From the NCBI RefSeq assembly GCF_023923225.1, contig NZ_CP099489.1, positions 682,001-746,000 of the forward strand: DNA of 64,000 bases, written 5' to 3'. Within the stretch, counting starts at the first letter, position 1. Each line of letters opens with the position of its first letter. Source of the DNA: Ornithinimicrobium faecis (GTDB lineage: Bacteria; Actinomycetota; Actinomycetes; Actinomycetales; Dermatophilaceae). The position numbers and the translations under genes are program-made. Of the stretch, positions 43,974 to 50,399 are shown piece after piece. The notes under the pieces are model-generated. The model was given only the letters and a program-made list of their open reading frames with translations, was not told the origin of the DNA and did not search any database.

Positions 43974-44002
43974 GCAACATTTCCCCCTGGTGCGTGCGTC
44001 AT
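43974..44002 (+). promoter_or_regulatory. ECF-type promoter candidate upstream of the sigma factor gene
   Basis: GCAACA (43974-43979), 17-bp spacer, CGTCAT (43997-44002). An AAC -35 with a CGTC -10 is the usual form for ECF sigma promoters, so the sigma factor may transcribe its own operon. It ends 27 bp before the ATG at 44030. Confidence 0.4.
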
Positions 44003-44029: not shown

Positions 44030-44563
44030 ATGAGACTCTTCGGCCGCTCGGCCGAGCAGGGCGAGATCGAGGCCTACGTCGAGGGCGCCATGCCCCGGCT
44101 GGTGGGCCTCGCCTACGCCATGACCGGGTCCAAACCGGATGCCGAGGACCTCGTCCAGGACACCCTGGCGACGGTGATCACCAAGTGGTCACGCGTCTCC
44201 GGGGCAGAAAATGTGGACGCCTATGTGCGGCGCACCATGGTCAACACGCTGATCTCCAAGAAGCGGCGCAAGTGGACCACGGAGGTCGTCTCGCACGAGG
44301 CGGTCACGGCAGACCGGGCACAACCTGTCGGCGCAGGGGTCGCGCAGCAGGTGACTGACCGAGATGCCGTGCTGGGGCTGTTGCGCCAGCTGCCGGACCG
44401 GCAGCGGGCCGTGATGGCGCTCCGTTTTTATGAGGACCTGCCTGATGCACAGATCGCCCAGGCCCTCGACTGCTCTGAGCAGGCCGTGCGCAGCGCGGCG
44501 CACAACGCAATGAAGACGCTCCGCCGGCTGCTGCCGGCACACCAGGATCAGGGGGTTGGCTGA
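44030..44563 (+). CDS. SigE-family ECF RNA polymerase sigma factor
   Basis: 177 residues. Region 2 (about 12-80) includes LVGLAYAMTGSKPDAEDLVQDTLA and VDAYVRRTMVN; region 4 (about 115-170) includes LLRQLPDRQRAVMALRFYEDLPDAQIA and the CSEQAVRSAAHNAMKTLRR helix-turn-helix. This is the actinobacterial SigE-type ECF group, which usually lacks a classical zinc anti-sigma factor. ATG 44030 follows GGAGA. The stop overlaps the ATG of the first membrane-protein paralog (TGATG), so partner status is likely. An ECF-like promoter lies upstream, suggesting autoregulation. Confidence 0.92.
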   Translation: MRLFGRSAEQGEIEAYVEGAMPRLVGLAYAMTGSKPDAEDLVQDTLATVITKWSRVSGAENVDAYVRRTMVNTLISKKRRKWTTEVVSHEAVTADRAQPVGAGVAQQVTDRDAVLGLLRQLPDRQRAVMALRFYEDLPDAQIAQALDCSEQAVRSAAHNAMKTLRRLLPAHQDQGVG

Positions 44564-45489
44564 TGGCCCAGCACGATGACAGCCGACGCACCGATGACGA
44601 CATCTCGGCGATGTTGCGCGGAGCGCTAGGCAATACAGACTTTGATTACGAGTCGCTGGTGGGTGGGGTCCACCGGCGGGCCGGTCGCATCCGACGCCGC
44701 CGGGCGATCGCCACTGGTGCCGCCGTGGCTGTGCTGGGGCCGGCGCTCGTGGGGGGCGCCGCCCTGGTGCTGCCCGACATGCTGGGTGATGAGGGCACGG
44801 TCGTCGGTCCCGCTGCATCGACGGATGTCGCGGTGGAGACGACTCAGGAGCCGACCGATCAGGCGGAGCAGACGGGCGAGCAGACACCCGACGCGCCGCC
44901 GTGGCAGGACGCGGAGCCGCCGCTGCCCGAGGGTGGTGCCGAGCCTGAGAATGAGGACCTCCCCAACGCCTGGGAGATCCCGGACGCCCGGCCCACCGGG
45001 GTGAGCGTGCTCGAGGGGTTCGGGGTGCCGCAGACATTCTCGAACTATCCACGGACTGTGCCTGTGATGGGTCTGATGACCTGTGACCCGGGCAACGCAG
45101 GCGGGGTGGAGCCGCTCGCCGGCCAGAGCGTGACGTACTACGAGGAAGGTATGGACGGGCTGAGCATCGACATCCACGTGACCGGCTGGGAGGACAGCGC
45201 CGCGGCCCTGGACGGCCTGGTGAACGACGACTACACCTCGTGTGTCTGGGATGACCGGGCCGGCGAGGTCGAGCCGTGGCCCGGCCACGAGGGCGACGAG
45301 GACTACCTGCTCTTCCCGGGCACGGAGCCGGGCCTGGATGCAGCGGTCGTGCGCCAGGGTGACTATCTGATTGCGGTCACCGTCCGGGACGGCTCTGACA
45401 CCGGATCGGAGACCGAGATCGCCACCGAGATCGCCAGCAAGCAGGCGGACAACCTCGAGGCACTCGACCCGGACCACGGGCGGGACTGA
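44563..45489 (+). CDS. Sigma-linked single-pass membrane protein, paralog 1
   Basis: 308 residues. A cytosolic N-terminus (about 1-48) carries DDDISAMLRGALGNTDFDYE and ends RRRR; one membrane segment (about 49-72) follows; then a Glu/Thr/Pro-rich linker and a C-terminal extracytoplasmic domain (about 110-308). By the positive-inside rule the C-terminus is outside. Translation is coupled to the sigma factor gene. The domain shares NAW-x-IPDARPTGV, PLAGQ, VTGWEDS, RQGDYLI-x-VTV and EIASK-x-ADN-x-x-ALDP with two following genes. It may hold the sigma factor at the membrane as an atypical anti-sigma factor (inference). I recognise no named family. Confidence 0.75.
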   Translation: MAQHDDSRRTDDDISAMLRGALGNTDFDYESLVGGVHRRAGRIRRRRAIATGAAVAVLGPALVGGAALVLPDMLGDEGTVVGPAASTDVAVETTQEPTDQAEQTGEQTPDAPPWQDAEPPLPEGGAEPENEDLPNAWEIPDARPTGVSVLEGFGVPQTFSNYPRTVPVMGLMTCDPGNAGGVEPLAGQSVTYYEEGMDGLSIDIHVTGWEDSAAALDGLVNDDYTSCVWDDRAGEVEPWPGHEGDEDYLLFPGTEPGLDAAVVRQGDYLIAVTVRDGSDTGSETEIATEIASKQADNLEALDPDHGRD

Positions 45490-45502
45490 GGGAGGTCTGG
45501 CA

Positions 45503-46486
45503 ATGAACCCTGAGTTCAGTGGCCCACCAGGCCGAGGCGACGACGACCGCATCAGCGCACAGCTGTGCCGAGCCGTCGGTGCTGCCGACTTTGACTACGC
45601 GACGCTGGTCGACGGTGTGCACCAGCGGGCCGGCCGCATCCGGCGCCGCCGAGCGCTGACGACCGGAGCCGTCGTGGCCGTCTTTGGCCCGGCGCTGCTC
45701 GGTGGGTCGGCGATGGTGCTGCCCGGTCTGCTCCCGGGTGGTGTTGAGGGCACCGTGACTCCGGCCGAGACACCGCTCGCGGCCCTGACCGAGGAGGCCG
45801 AGCCCACGCCGGAGGCTGGCGCTGACACCGAGACTGCCGGAGACGCGAATGGGCGAACCGCCGAGGCGGAGCCTGGACAGGTCCAGGACCCGCCCTGGCA
45901 GGAGACGGCTCCACCGCTGCCAGAGGGTGGGCTGGACGATGCCAACTCGGGCAACGCCTGGGAGATCCCGGATGCACGCCCGACCGGGGTGGCCCATCTG
46001 GAAGGCTTCGGAGCGCCGCAACAGGCCCTGATCACCCGCAGGGCCATGCCGGTGATGGGCGCCATGGTCGGCAACACCGGGGTGGAGGACATGGCGCCGG
46101 TGGCTGGGCAGAGCTGGTTCTACTATCACGAGGACAACGGCTCCTCCGGCGGCAACGTTCAACTCCAGGTCACGGGGTGGGACGACAGCAGGGCAGCCCG
46201 CGACGCCATCCGGGACGACACGCTGATGAACTTTGTCCGGGACACGGACGACGAGTGGCAGCGGCTCGACTGGAGCGAGCACATGGCCGATGACGATTAC
46301 CTGCTCTATCGCGCGACCGCTGGAGGACGCCACCTCGGGTTCGCGGTGGTGCGGCAGGGGGACTACCTCATCGGGGTCACGGTGACCGACACCGAGGGGG
46401 AGATCAACGCCGAGGTTGCTGGGGAGATCGCGAGCAAGACGGCAGACAACATGCAGGCCCTGGACCCGGTCCACGGCCGCGACTAA
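45503..46486 (+). CDS. Sigma-linked single-pass membrane protein, paralog 2
   Basis: 327 residues, same layout as paralog 1: N-terminal DDRISAQLCRAVGAADFDYA, basic RIRRRR, a membrane segment (about 50-75), an acidic and Thr/Ala-rich linker, and a C-terminal domain with GNAWEIPDARPTGV, VAGQSWFYYH, VTGWDDSRAARDAIRDD and the terminal ALDPVHGRD. The ATG at 45503 has GGGAGGT 7 bases upstream; 13 bp separate it from paralog 1. The tail motif lacks the Cys present in paralogs 1 and 3 after the PVM segment. Probably an additional sensor or regulator in the sigma operon; function unknown. Confidence 0.75.
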   Translation: MNPEFSGPPGRGDDDRISAQLCRAVGAADFDYATLVDGVHQRAGRIRRRRALTTGAVVAVFGPALLGGSAMVLPGLLPGGVEGTVTPAETPLAALTEEAEPTPEAGADTETAGDANGRTAEAEPGQVQDPPWQETAPPLPEGGLDDANSGNAWEIPDARPTGVAHLEGFGAPQQALITRRAMPVMGAMVGNTGVEDMAPVAGQSWFYYHEDNGSSGGNVQLQVTGWDDSRAARDAIRDDTLMNFVRDTDDEWQRLDWSEHMADDDYLLYRATAGGRHLGFAVVRQGDYLIGVTVTDTEGEINAEVAGEIASKTADNMQALDPVHGRD

Positions 46487-46495
46487 GGGGGACAC

Positions 46496-47419
46496 ATGAG
46501 GAACACACAGGGGGACACCATGAACGAACAGACCACCAGCCTGGCGCAGGGAGGCCACGCGCGGCGCCGACGAGCACTCGTGACCGGGGCTGCGGTGGCG
46601 GCGCTCGGCACCGCGCTGATCGGGGGCTCGACACTCGTCGGCGGCGAGGAGGAACCCGGCGACACCGCCGAGATCGTGCTCACCCCCGCTGCTGGTGGGA
46701 GCAGCACGGAGCCAGCCTCGGCACAGCCGGCCAGCCTGGGCACGGGCCAGGCCCTCGGCGGGGATCAGGTCAGTGCCGCCGACCTGGCGGCGGTCGAGGG
46801 CGACGCAGCACCGCCGTGGCAGGACAGTCAACCGCCGCTGCCTGAGGGCGGGATGTTGCCGGAGAACCCGGACCTGCCGAACGCCTGGCAGATCCCGGAC
46901 GCCCGGCCGACCGGCGTGGACTATCTGGACGTCTTCGGCGCTCCGAGGATGGGGATGAACTATCCCAGGATGGTGCCGGTCTTCGATGCCATGGTGTGCA
47001 ACACGGGTGCCGACGACGTCGAGCCGCTGGCCGGGCAGAACTGGATGTATTACCTGGGCGACGGCACCGACCTGGACGCGGACTCGGTCGACATCGTGGT
47101 CACCGGCTGGGAGGACAGCACTGCGGCGCGTGACGCCCTCCGCGATGACACCATGACCTTCTGTGTCCGGGACACCGCAGGCGATTGGCAACAGCTGGAG
47201 TGGGCCGAGCACGAGGGTGATGACGACTACCTGCTCTATCAGGCCGGGTCAGGGACCGGGCTGGACCACAGCTTTGCCATCGTGCGCCAGGGCGACTATC
47301 TGGTCGGCGTCACCGTGACCGGCACACGCGGTGAGGCCAAGGTCGGCGGCGCGGCGGAGATCGCGAGCAAGATGGCCGACAACCTCGAGGTGCTGGACCC
47401 CGTCCACGGCCGCGACTGA
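46496..47419 (+). CDS. Sigma-linked single-pass membrane protein, paralog 3 (N-terminal motif lost)
   Basis: 307 residues from ATG 46496, or 299 from ATG 46520. Both starts are preceded by a GGGGGACAC block, which is a local duplication. The C-terminal domain is close to paralog 1 (PPWQDSQPPLPEGG, NAWQIPDARPTGV, PLAGQNWMYY, VTGWEDSTAARDALRDD, LDPVHGRD), and the RRRR plus membrane segment (about 18-45) are kept. The conserved cytosolic motif of paralogs 1 and 2 (DISxxL...DFDY) is missing, so this copy probably cannot bind whatever the others bind inside the cell. It ends 26 bp before treY. Confidence 0.75.
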   Translation: MRNTQGDTMNEQTTSLAQGGHARRRRALVTGAAVAALGTALIGGSTLVGGEEEPGDTAEIVLTPAAGGSSTEPASAQPASLGTGQALGGDQVSAADLAAVEGDAAPPWQDSQPPLPEGGMLPENPDLPNAWQIPDARPTGVDYLDVFGAPRMGMNYPRMVPVFDAMVCNTGADDVEPLAGQNWMYYLGDGTDLDADSVDIVVTGWEDSTAARDALRDDTMTFCVRDTAGDWQQLEWAEHEGDDDYLLYQAGSGTGLDHSFAIVRQGDYLVGVTVTGTRGEAKVGGAAEIASKMADNLEVLDPVHGRD

Positions 47420-47445: not shown

Positions 47446-49884
47446 GTGAGCCCCTCTGATGTCACCGCGACCTACCGGCTGCAGCTGCACGCCGGGTTCA
47501 CGTTCGAGCACGCCCGCCAGGTGGTTGCCTACCTGGCGGGCCTCGGCGTCTCCCACGTCTATCTCTCGCCGGTCCTGACAGCAGTCCCTGGCAGCCAGCA
47601 CGGTTATGACGTGCTGGACCACGGGTCCATCGACCCGGAGTTGGGCGGCCGAGAGGGACTCGAGGCCCTGGCCGCCGACTGCCACGAGGCCGGGCTCGGC
47701 GTGATCGTGGACGTCGTCCCCAACCACATGGCGCTCACGGCGCCGGAGTGGGCCAACGCCCAGGTCTGGGCCCTGCTGCGAGGCGGCCGTCAGTCAACGA
47801 CAGCGCACTGGTTCGACATCGACTGGGACGCCCTCGGCAGCCGGGTCGGTCTGCCCATCCTCGGGGCGCCGCTGGAGCAGGTGCTGGCGGAGGGGCAGCT
47901 CACCCTCGACACCGGACGCCCCGACGAGGGGCTGGCCGCGGGTCAGCCGGTCATCCGTTACTACGAGCACGTCCTCCCGGTGGCCGAGGGCACGGCTGGT
48001 CCGGTGGCCGGCGGCACGACACCGCCGTATGCCGAGGCGCACCCCGGCGCAGACGTCGCCGAGGTGCTGGAGCGGCAGCACTATCTGCTCGCCCACTGGC
48101 AGGACGCGGAGGCAGCCCTGAACTATCGCCGGTTCTTTGAGGTCGACTCGCTGATCGCGGTGCGCGTCGAGGAGCCGGACGTCTTCGAGGACACCCACCG
48201 GCTGCTGCTGGATCTGCACCACGCGGGCGTCATCGACGGCTTCCGCATCGACCATCCCGACGGGCTGGCCGACCCGGAGGACTATCTGCGTCGACTCACC
48301 CGTCAGTGTCGCCCCGGCACGCCGATCTGGGTCGAGAAGATCCTGGAGGACTCCGAGCGACTGCCGCGCAACTGGGAGTGTGCCGGCACGACCGGCTATG
48401 ACGGCCAGGCGGTGCTCGCGCAGGCGCTCGTCCCGGAGGCCACCATCGAGACGATTGACACCACCTGGGCCGCGACGGGCGGTGAACCCTCACTGGACGT
48501 CGTGGTCGACGCCACCAAGCGCGGCGCCGTGGACACCCTGCTGACGCCGGAGACGGCCCGCCTCGGTCGCCGGGCCCAGCAGGCCCTGCCCGATGAGGAG
48601 CCCGACGCGCTCGCGGCCGCCCTGCGGGAGCTCCTGGTGGCCGTCGATGTCTATCGCGCTTATGTCCAACCGGGGCAGGAACCCGCCCCGGAGGCGCAGG
48701 CCCGCCTGCGCGGCGCGATCGAGCGGGCCGCCGGAGCCAGTGACCGGCCTGAGGTCGTGCAGCGCGTCGGTGAGGTGCTCCTGCACCCCGACGGCACCGC
48801 CGACCCCGCGGCCGCCCGCGACCTGGCCGTGCGCTTCCAGCAGGTCACCGGGCCGGTGATGGCCAAGGGCATCGAGGACACGGCGTTCTATCGCTGGCAC
48901 CGTCTCGTCGCCCTCAACGAGGTCGGCGCAGACCCCGCCGCACAGCCGGGCACGAAGGACCTGATCGCCTGGGCGCAACACCAGGTCGAGCACTGGCCCC
49001 TGTCGATGACCACGCTGTCCACCCACGACACCAAGCGCAGCGAGGACGTGCGAGCCCGGATCCTGGCCGTGGCGGCCGACGCCGACGCCTGGCGGGCCTG
49101 CTCCGAGGCGTTCGGCCGGGCAGCAGCTGAGCACGGCGTGGACGGCCCCACGGCCCACCTGCTCTGGCAGACCGTGGTGGGGGCTGACGGCGACCAGCAG
49201 GCGAGCCTCGGGCTGGATGAGGAGCGCCTGACGTCCTATCTGGTCAAGGCCATGCGTGAGAGCAAGGAGCACACCCACTGGACCGCCGTCGACGAGGCCT
49301 ATGAGGAGCGGGTGCTGTCCCTGGCACGCGAGACGCTCGCCGACGGCCCGTTGCGCGAGGTCATCGCCCGGGCAGTCACCGACAACACTCGCCGCGTGCG
49401 CGCCGTGACCCTCGCCCAGAAGCTGCTCCAGCTCACCCTCCCCGGCGTGCCCGACACCTATCAGGGCGCCGAGCTGGTCGACCTGTCCCTGGTCGACCCG
49501 GACAACCGCCGGACCGTCGACTTCGCCGAGCGGACGCAACGCCTGGCCCGGCTGGACGGCGGCGGAGCCCCACAGGACCTTTCCGACGAGAAGTTGCTGG
49601 TCACCGCCGCGACGCTGCGACTGCGCACGGAGCGGCCGGGCTCGTTCGCCGCTGGGTTCAGGCCACTGGACACTGGGGCCAACGTGCTCGGCTATCTGCG
49701 CGGTGACGACGTGCTCGTGCTCGCGGTGCGTCAACCGGATGCCGAGGGGACTGTCGCGGCCACTGACGTCGAGTTGCCAGCGGGTGCCTGGGTCGACCGG
49801 CTCACGGGTGCTCGACACCAGGGCACCGTGGACACGGGCTCGATCTTCGCCGAACTGCCCATAGCGCTCCTGGCCCGGGAGTAG
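47446..49884 (+). CDS. treY: Malto-oligosyltrehalose synthase
   Basis: 812 residues, GH13 fold. Catalytic motifs: DVVPNHM, GFRIDHPDGL with the nucleophile Asp, WVEKILE with the Glu, and LSTHDTKR with the third Asp. It converts the reducing-end alpha-1,4 bond of a maltodextrin to alpha,alpha-1,1, giving maltooligosyl trehalose for TreZ (encoded at 50419). The GTG start at 47446 lies 7 bases after CAGACT with no ribosome binding site, a leaderless pattern, so transcription may be independent of the membrane-protein genes. No treX debranching enzyme gene is adjacent. Most Tyr codons are TAT. Confidence 0.95.
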   Translation: MSPSDVTATYRLQLHAGFTFEHARQVVAYLAGLGVSHVYLSPVLTAVPGSQHGYDVLDHGSIDPELGGREGLEALAADCHEAGLGVIVDVVPNHMALTAPEWANAQVWALLRGGRQSTTAHWFDIDWDALGSRVGLPILGAPLEQVLAEGQLTLDTGRPDEGLAAGQPVIRYYEHVLPVAEGTAGPVAGGTTPPYAEAHPGADVAEVLERQHYLLAHWQDAEAALNYRRFFEVDSLIAVRVEEPDVFEDTHRLLLDLHHAGVIDGFRIDHPDGLADPEDYLRRLTRQCRPGTPIWVEKILEDSERLPRNWECAGTTGYDGQAVLAQALVPEATIETIDTTWAATGGEPSLDVVVDATKRGAVDTLLTPETARLGRRAQQALPDEEPDALAAALRELLVAVDVYRAYVQPGQEPAPEAQARLRGAIERAAGASDRPEVVQRVGEVLLHPDGTADPAAARDLAVRFQQVTGPVMAKGIEDTAFYRWHRLVALNEVGADPAAQPGTKDLIAWAQHQVEHWPLSMTTLSTHDTKRSEDVRARILAVAADADAWRACSEAFGRAAAEHGVDGPTAHLLWQTVVGADGDQQASLGLDEERLTSYLVKAMRESKEHTHWTAVDEAYEERVLSLARETLADGPLREVIARAVTDNTRRVRAVTLAQKLLQLTLPGVPDTYQGAELVDLSLVDPDNRRTVDFAERTQRLARLDGGGAPQDLSDEKLLVTAATLRLRTERPGSFAAGFRPLDTGANVLGYLRGDDVLVLAVRQPDAEGTVAATDVELPAGAWVDRLTGARHQGTVDTGSIFAELPIALLARE

Positions 49885-49928: not shown

Positions 49929-50399
49929 ATGGCCAGCGACGACGTCGTGACGGAGGGCTTCAGGGCCTATCTGAAGCAGGTGCGCGCCCACCGCGCCGAG
50001 TTGCGCGACGCCGTGCGCCGCGTGGAGGACACGCTGGCCTCCCCGATCGCCCGCGGCACGGCCTGGCGCACCCGGGTCGCGGTCGCGCTGGCCAACCTCT
50101 CGCGCGACTTCGAGGATCACATCCACCTCACCGAGCGCCCCGGCGGCCTGTATGACAGCGCCCGGTCGGCGCAGCCCCGCCTCGCCGCGACGGCTGAGTC
50201 GTTGGTGGCCGAGCACACGGGGCTGCGGGCGGCCATCGAGGCGTGCCTGAGCGATTTCACCGAGGGCGCGGACGACGCTGATCTGGAGCGTCTGCGGGAG
50301 AGCGGCACCCACCTGATCGGTCAACTGGTGCGGCACCGGCAGCGCGGTGGCGACCTGGTCTATGAGGCCTATGCCGTCGACATCGGCGGCGAGGGCTGA
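49929..50399 (+). CDS. Small helical protein with hemerythrin-like His pattern
   Basis: 156 residues, predicted all-alpha. His and acidic residues fall in positions like a hemerythrin/HHE four-helix bundle: FEDHIHLTE near residue 60, LVAEHTGLR near residue 97 and RHRQRGGDLVYEAY near residue 138. The match is partial, so metal binding is only a suggestion. The gene lies between treY and treZ with 44 bp and 19 bp gaps; GGAGAGG precedes the ATG. Its location suggests co-expression with trehalose synthesis, perhaps under stress. I cannot name a function. Confidence 0.6.
   Translation: MASDDVVTEGFRAYLKQVRAHRAELRDAVRRVEDTLASPIARGTAWRTRVAVALANLSRDFEDHIHLTERPGGLYDSARSAQPRLAATAESLVAEHTGLRAAIEACLSDFTEGADDADLERLRESGTHLIGQLVRHRQRGGDLVYEAYAVDIGGEG

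Follow-up and report, generated by a model that had tools for sequence, protein, structure and literature searches.

A SigE-type ECF sigma factor operon with paralogous membrane proteins in Ornithinimicrobium faecis: a candidate envelope-stress system with proposed anti-sigma control

Membrane anti-sigma factors encoded beside the genes of extracytoplasmic function (ECF) sigma factors are a known kind of regulator. Class I anti-sigma domains, which are described as averaging about 101 residues, are reported near about a third of ECF sigma factors (PMC7406223), and the ECF17 proteins are described as possibly regulated by anti-sigma factors (PMC8869649). Sigma-E of Streptomyces coelicolor, as presented in PMC6767563, lacks an anti-sigma factor and depends for its control on the two-component system CseBC. 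In one classification, 102 of 157 ECF groups are given as lacking a studied member (PMC8103513). The operon considered here lies in a 64,000-nucleotide stretch of Ornithinimicrobium faecis DNA (contig NZ_CP099489.1, positions 682,001 to 746,000; hereafter the window), which belongs to a genome of 4.62 Mb, and it contains a SigE-family sigma factor gene followed by three genes for paralogous membrane proteins (genes 1 to 3, whose products and relatives are called sensors below). A comparison across the genus and the order moderately favors the reading that this is an autoregulated, membrane-tethered envelope-stress ECF sigma system with proposed anti-sigma control.

The sigma factor, P0001, exceeds the curated cut-off of TIGR02983 by a narrow margin (144.1 bits against 141.55), and its sigma regions 2 and 4 (PF04542 and PF08281) are both above cut-off. 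The stop codon of the sigma gene shares one base with the start codon of gene 1 (TGATG), which bears out the first-pass annotation of this DNA in that a SigE-type sigma gene is coupled to the first membrane-protein gene. Genes 1, 2 and 3 lie on the same strand as the sigma gene, with intergenic gaps of 13 bases (genes 1 and 2) and 9 bases (genes 2 and 3). Upstream of the sigma gene lies the divergent metH, and treY, a hemerythrin-like gene and treZ lie 3′ of gene 3. The features of the operon, in window coordinates, are as follows; the ratios of nonsynonymous to synonymous substitution (dN/dS) were obtained by the Nei-Gojobori method from the window and Ornithinimicrobium murale.

43974..44001, + strand: predicted ECF-type operon promoter, GCAACNT-N16-CGTCW, conserved in 12/12 sigma-bearing genomes
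44030..44563, + strand: ECF sigma factor of the SigE family, P0001, 177 aa (TIGR02983, Sigma70_r2, Sigma70_r4_2)
44563..45489, + strand: gene 1, P0002, 308 aa, single-pass membrane protein with module and outer domain, proposed anti-sigma factor (overlaps the sigma gene; orthologs behind sigma in the genus)
44563..44703, + strand: cytosolic module of gene 1, up to and including RRRR (dN/dS 0.19; associated with sigma adjacency)
44974..45486, + strand: outer domain of gene 1 with both conserved cysteines (alignment)
45503..46486, + strand: gene 2, P0003, 327 aa, paralog with module and outer domain
45503..45652, + strand: cytosolic module of gene 2, up to and including RRRR (dN/dS 0.37)
45962..46483, + strand: outer domain of gene 2, which has lost both conserved cysteines (alignment)
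46496..47419, + strand: gene 3, P0004, 307 aa, paralog lacking the cytosolic module, with a second ATG in frame at 46520
46889..47416, + strand: outer domain of gene 3 with both conserved cysteines (alignment; dN/dS 0.23 from PPWQ to the end)

The products of genes 2 and 3 are about 51-54% and about 51-52% identical to that of gene 1, respectively. In all three proteins, RRRR abuts the N-terminal side of the most hydrophobic stretch, and the helix is followed by a low-complexity linker and a C-terminal part that ends in LDP-x-HGRD. These elements were correctly recognized in the first-pass annotation; its further claim of one architecture for all three holds for genes 1 and 2 but not for gene 3, in which the cytosolic module is missing. 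The module, of about 45-50 residues, carries the conserved DFDYxxLVxGVHxRAGRIRRRR in genes 1 and 2 and extends to the end of RRRR over approximately 47 residues in gene 1 and approximately 50 in gene 2. The dN/dS of the N-terminal part is 0.19 for copy 1, 0.37 for copy 2 and 0.78 for copy 3, the last value resting on 16 codons and being weak evidence alone. Reading of the cytosolic segments of genes 1 to 3 revealed no HxxxCxxC zinc motif, and the three products have no Pfam or NCBIfam match above cut-off, so that an identity as zinc anti-sigma factors, already doubted from the first inspection, was rejected. The membrane proteins show no sequence similarity to known anti-sigma families, and a search by sequence found no relatives of solved structure for the cytosolic segment.

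The locus has its nearest named relatives in species of Ornithinimicrobium. Among 31 genomes of this genus, that of the window included, sigma orthologs (E <= 1e-40) are present in 12, each with one to three sensors; relaxing the threshold to E 1e-25 adds one genome, G160, with a weak relative. Three sensors are found in 2 of these 12 genomes, two in 4 (in one of which the locus lies on a short contig) and one in 6. Triplication as the basis of control, as had been suggested, is thus not the rule. Among the one-sensor genomes, O. sp. F0845 additionally carries a broken stub (L038:6702-7124), which consists of the cytosolic module and a broken helix; a full-length copy is present in the related metagenome-assembled genome L039. 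Of the 8 loci compared, 7 have metH facing the sigma gene and that of O. cavernae does not. In 10 of the 19 sigma-less genomes metH is divergent and at most 1.5 kb upstream of treY, which indicates that the cassette is located at, or was lost from, that junction. A treY tree of 28 genomes requires at least six changes of sigma presence, and the contrast between sigma-bearing and sigma-less genomes is therefore not merely one of clade versus clade.

The association is also seen outside the genus. Searched with an outer-domain profile (E <= 1e-5), the 396 genomes of the order gave 45 matches in 34 genomes, counted as 40 genes, of which 3 (in G291, G258 and G184) were left out because of contig ends. 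SigE-like sigma genes were identified by phmmer with P0001 as the query (E <= 1e-6). One abuts or overlaps the domain gene on the same strand in 24 of the 37 decidable cases, and in 20 of 33 without the genus itself, adjacency and distances being counted by hand from coordinates; the regions fetched around the other 13 showed none. The outer domain is thus located mostly beside sigma genes and not, as the first-pass annotation had allowed for, mostly away from them. The arrangement of sigma gene and sensor is not due to chance, since it recurs in 12/31 genomes of the genus and outside it. A profile of the cytosolic module (E < 0.01) matches 20 of 26 sigma-adjacent domain proteins (2 further matches are weak, and 4 proteins have none) and 6 of 21 non-adjacent ones, all in one genus; this profile was iterated on the same proteins that it scored, and its first round, from Ornithinimicrobium alone, found 8. 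The cytosolic module is associated with sigma adjacency and is under purifying selection.

The pattern GCAAC-N18-CGTC is located 55-56 bases before the sigma start codon in all 12 sigma-bearing genomes. The promoter has 10 invariant bases; position 2 of the spacer is T, CGTC is followed by A or T, and most other spacer positions are variable. ECF promoters with AAC and CGT boxes have been described (PMC8103513), and the operon motif fits this form. The core pattern occurs in shuffled upstream regions at a rate of 0.001 per region; because the pattern was derived from the same 12 promoters, their own match is no independent test. The strict motif occurs at 38 sites in the 12 sigma-bearing genomes versus 5 for the reversed pattern. 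These sites include the 12 operon promoters and 12 sites before cell-wall genes, namely CWB2 in 5 genomes, YkuD with PG_binding_1 in 4 and LCP (LytR_cpsA_psr) in 3 (8 of the 12 products were Pfam-scanned, and 4 are matches of the same searches); the remaining 14 were inspected in part. Motif counts per genome were rejected as stand-alone evidence, since such counts do not set the sigma-bearing genomes apart from the sigma-less ones.

Orthologous promoters were compared using the relaxed motif GCAAC-N17..19-CGTC, which has a background of approximately 0.02 per 340 bases in the fetched loci, true sites included. For CWB2, this motif lies before the ortholog in 7 of the 9 sigma-bearing genomes and in none of the 13 that lack sigma (Fisher 2e-4). 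The count leaves out 9 of the 31 genomes, two without a match (G155 and G166) and seven with partial paralog matches only (G162, G170, G159, G156, G157, G104 and G164), and retains a partial match in G119; no motif is found for G165, in which the contig ends 354 bases upstream. The corresponding values are 3/12 versus 0/18 for LCP (p 0.054) and 10/11 versus 8/19 for YkuD (p 0.018), the YkuD genes compared not being all of one subgroup; no locus was fetched for YkuD in G150 or for LCP in G161. The YkuD motif in sigma-less genomes means that some other factor must use it there, and YkuD was consequently rejected as a clean regulon marker. In four sigma-less genomes (G168, G167, G160 and G161; loci L151, L154, L160 and L161) even the strict motif precedes YkuD, which suggests that a different sigma factor with a similar specificity uses it. 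Of the predicted targets, the CWB2 protein is the most consistent. CWB2-type proteins are numerous, with 13 matches in the genome of the window (G000) and 18 in G152.

The reading of the operon as an autoregulated, membrane-tethered system is based on the sigma-sensor linkage (12/12 in the genus, 24/37 in the order survey), on the module that is constrained and associated with sigma adjacency, on the invariant promoter-like motif together with the excess of strict sites over the reversed pattern, and on the distribution of the motif before CWB2; the constrained outer domain and the other motif-bearing cell-wall genes add support at the level of sequence. In the proposed mechanism, the cytosolic modules of genes 1 and 2 would hold the sigma factor at the membrane, and a cell-wall or surface disturbance acting on the shared outer domain would free it. 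Release by proteolysis, as described for sigma-D/RsdA (PMC11175481), is conceivable by analogy. The free sigma factor is predicted to transcribe its own operon from the invariant ECF-type promoter, the CWB2 genes and, in some species, the genes for LCP and the YkuD L,D-transpeptidase; read-through into treY may occur where treY follows closely, and gene 3 may have an accessory role outside the cell. Several observations weigh against this reading. The 19 sigma-less genomes also hold 38 strict sites (control 16), as many per genome, and the motif is kept before YkuD in 8 of them. In the sigma-bearing genomes, CWB2 lacks the motif in 2 of 9 and LCP carries it in just 3 of 12, and the Fisher tests ignore kinship. 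Additionally, 4 of the 26 sigma-adjacent domain proteins are without a module match, and in six genomes of one genus (L288-L293) the module, helix and domain are present with no SigE-like sigma gene within approximately 2 kb.

Gene 3 differs from its paralogs in its N-terminal part. Only 22 residues precede RRRR, or 14 if counted from the second ATG, and a longer start is impossible because the stop codon of gene 2 sits just upstream in the same frame. In O. murale, the third copy (L036:7940-8848) shows the same truncation. From PPWQ to the C-terminal end, dN/dS is 0.24 for gene 1, 0.44 for gene 2 and 0.23 for gene 3, and by this measure the outer domain of gene 3 is constrained like that of gene 1. 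In a tree of the outer domains, the two third copies cluster with low support (0.40) and the two first copies with a support of 0.98. With the module missing from gene 3, it is unlikely that all three sensors bind the sigma factor; gene 3 probably acts extracellularly together with genes 1 and 2, as a co-sensor or by competing for the signal, rather than by binding sigma. Outside the genus, in G216, an additional outer-domain frame without the module (L284:1756-2421) lies directly 3′ of a complete sensor in a sigma operon and is a possible parallel to gene 3. A broader proposal, put forward tentatively, is that of a multi-sensor ECF system in which a tether-less paralog, a sensor-only membrane protein, shares its outer domain with two sigma-tethering copies and tunes the response extracellularly through ligand competition or pairing; the outer domain, which also occurs free and in tandem, would then be an envelope-sensing module in wide use among SigE-type sigma factors.

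Gene 3 could instead be a mere decaying duplicate heading for loss, which would suit the missing module, the unconstrained N-terminal part (dN/dS 0.78 over 16 codons), the occurrence of third copies in just 2/12 genomes and a fluid sensor copy number, as seen in the broken stub of F0845. This explanation is rather doubtful, since the dN/dS of the outer domain is near that of gene 1 and below that of gene 2, and the frame is intact in both the window and O. murale. A second alternative concerns the anti-sigma role itself: the membrane proteins may be other operon members or targets, and the sigma factor may be controlled only by its own transcription, like sigma-E of S. coelicolor, which provides a precedent without an anti-sigma factor (PMC6767563). 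The lack of sequence similarity to known anti-sigma families agrees with this alternative, as does the presence of the module without a nearby sigma gene in one genus. It is nevertheless judged unlikely in view of the one-base overlap of gene 1 with the sigma gene, the recurrence of outer-domain genes beside SigE-like sigma genes in several families and the position of the conserved module, on the suitable side and directly before the membrane helix. The genes cseA, cseB and cseC do not lie behind the present sigma gene, a statement that covers the locus, a two-component system elsewhere not having been looked for.

A third alternative assigns the system mainly to osmotic or desiccation protection through the trehalose genes and the cell-wall promoters to another sigma factor of similar specificity. 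The gene concerned is the following:

47446..49884, + strand: treY, malto-oligosyltrehalose synthase (TIGR02401, 774.7 bits); possibly the end part of the transcript

In the window, treY follows gene 3 after 26 bases, with no terminator-like site on the + strand between them, and in six genomes of the close clade the inferred treY start lies about 12-44 bases beyond the end of the last sensor-related frame (in F0845, 283 bases if measured from the complete sensor). This proximity and the motif retained before YkuD in 8/19 sigma-less genomes favor the trehalose explanation. Against it, the gap is wider elsewhere: three other sigma-bearing genomes (G047, G119 and G158) have approximately 0.28 kb, G170 has 0.8 kb and G162 has 4.1 kb (the contig ends there in G163); treY is present in 31/31 genomes and the sigma factor in 12/31; and CWB2 orthologs are without the motif where the sigma factor is absent (0/13). 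Furthermore, no motif is found directly upstream of treY in the 28 usable loci of 30 scanned, the unusable ones being G163, whose contig begins at treY, and G164, whose match begins inside treY. A system serving mainly osmotic or desiccation protection is therefore considered improbable. The hemerythrin-like gene (49929-50399; PF01814, 28.6 bits with a cut-off of 25.3) lies between treY and treZ (TIGR02402) and is kept with both in O. murale, O. cavernae and O. sp. F0845.

The outer domain has no counterpart among named families in the searches performed: 15 full-length relatives gave no match above cut-off in Pfam, and 19 outer domains gave none in NCBIfam, where the best of the weak matches has an E of 0.034. 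Two conserved cysteines are both present in 14 of 19 aligned domains and both absent from 5, and in an overlapping set of 20 sensors of the genus the pair is complete in 13 and absent from 7; no domain in either set has a single cysteine. This paired presence or absence suggests that the cysteines form a disulfide that is lost as a unit; gene 2 has lost the pair. An identity as PknH_C (PF14032) was considered from its look; both are small actinobacterial extracellular domains, and the last 34-37 aligned residues are in register. This identity received no support from Pfam scans (best score among relatives 14.3 bits, cut-off 27) or from profile comparison (probabilities of 5.6% and 16%, not significant). 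Compared with solved structures, the domain profile gave matches with a best E of 0.045; these were short, fell on unrelated proteins and were attributed to chance. Two outer domains occur in one sensor chain, with a sigma gene beside it, at L043, L046-L050, L052 and L286. Free single-domain proteins with a signal-peptide-like start are encoded at L053-L059, where the 10-11 kb fetched contain no SigE-like sigma gene.

In light of the known systems outlined above, the initial description of the operon as an undescribed signaling system is too strong, since control of ECF sigma factors by membrane proteins encoded next to them has precedents. What does seem undescribed is this family of sensors, along with a copy that is missing the presumed sigma-holding part. 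Titles and abstract openings of the papers listed for Ornithinimicrobium sigma factors contain nothing on the present system, and neither do those of the matches listed for several anti-sigma factors per sigma factor; the group may already have been noted in the main ECF classification. The unnamed conserved outer domain beside SigE-type sigma genes, with a predicted promoter and cell-wall targets, makes the group directly testable, and the pattern of gene 3, in which the tether is lost and the sensor is under selection, offers a natural test for accessory sensors in ECF systems.

A position beside the sigma gene, which is a general mark of anti-sigma genes, is found for the sensors in 12/12 genomes of the genus and 24/37 cases of the order survey. 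Like class I and class II anti-sigma domains (PMC7406223), the module is a short cytosolic segment by a membrane helix and is encoded beside an ECF sigma gene. It differs from class I in its length of approximately 45-50 residues (47 and 50 in genes 1 and 2, against the average of 101) and in the absence of HxxxCxxC, a zinc motif that is present only in part of that class, and membership in class I was not adopted; the likeness to short class II domains such as CnrY is a lead only. The motif resembles the target promoters of S. coelicolor sigma-E, GGCAAC-N17-CGTC, and the targets described for sigma-E include L,D-transpeptidases (YkuD) and an LCP-family protein (PMC6767563), a likeness of promoter form and of target types that, for the present operon, are predicted from promoters. 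In contrast to sigma-E, two module-bearing paralogous membrane proteins lie behind the present sigma gene, and CWB2 is its most consistent predicted target. The corynebacterial sigma-D/RsdA pair is also an actinobacterial envelope-stress ECF sigma factor with a membrane-anchored anti-sigma factor; as described, it has a single anti-sigma factor with proteolytic activation and a long disordered outer part (PMC11175481), whereas the present system has one to three paralogs with a conserved outer domain.

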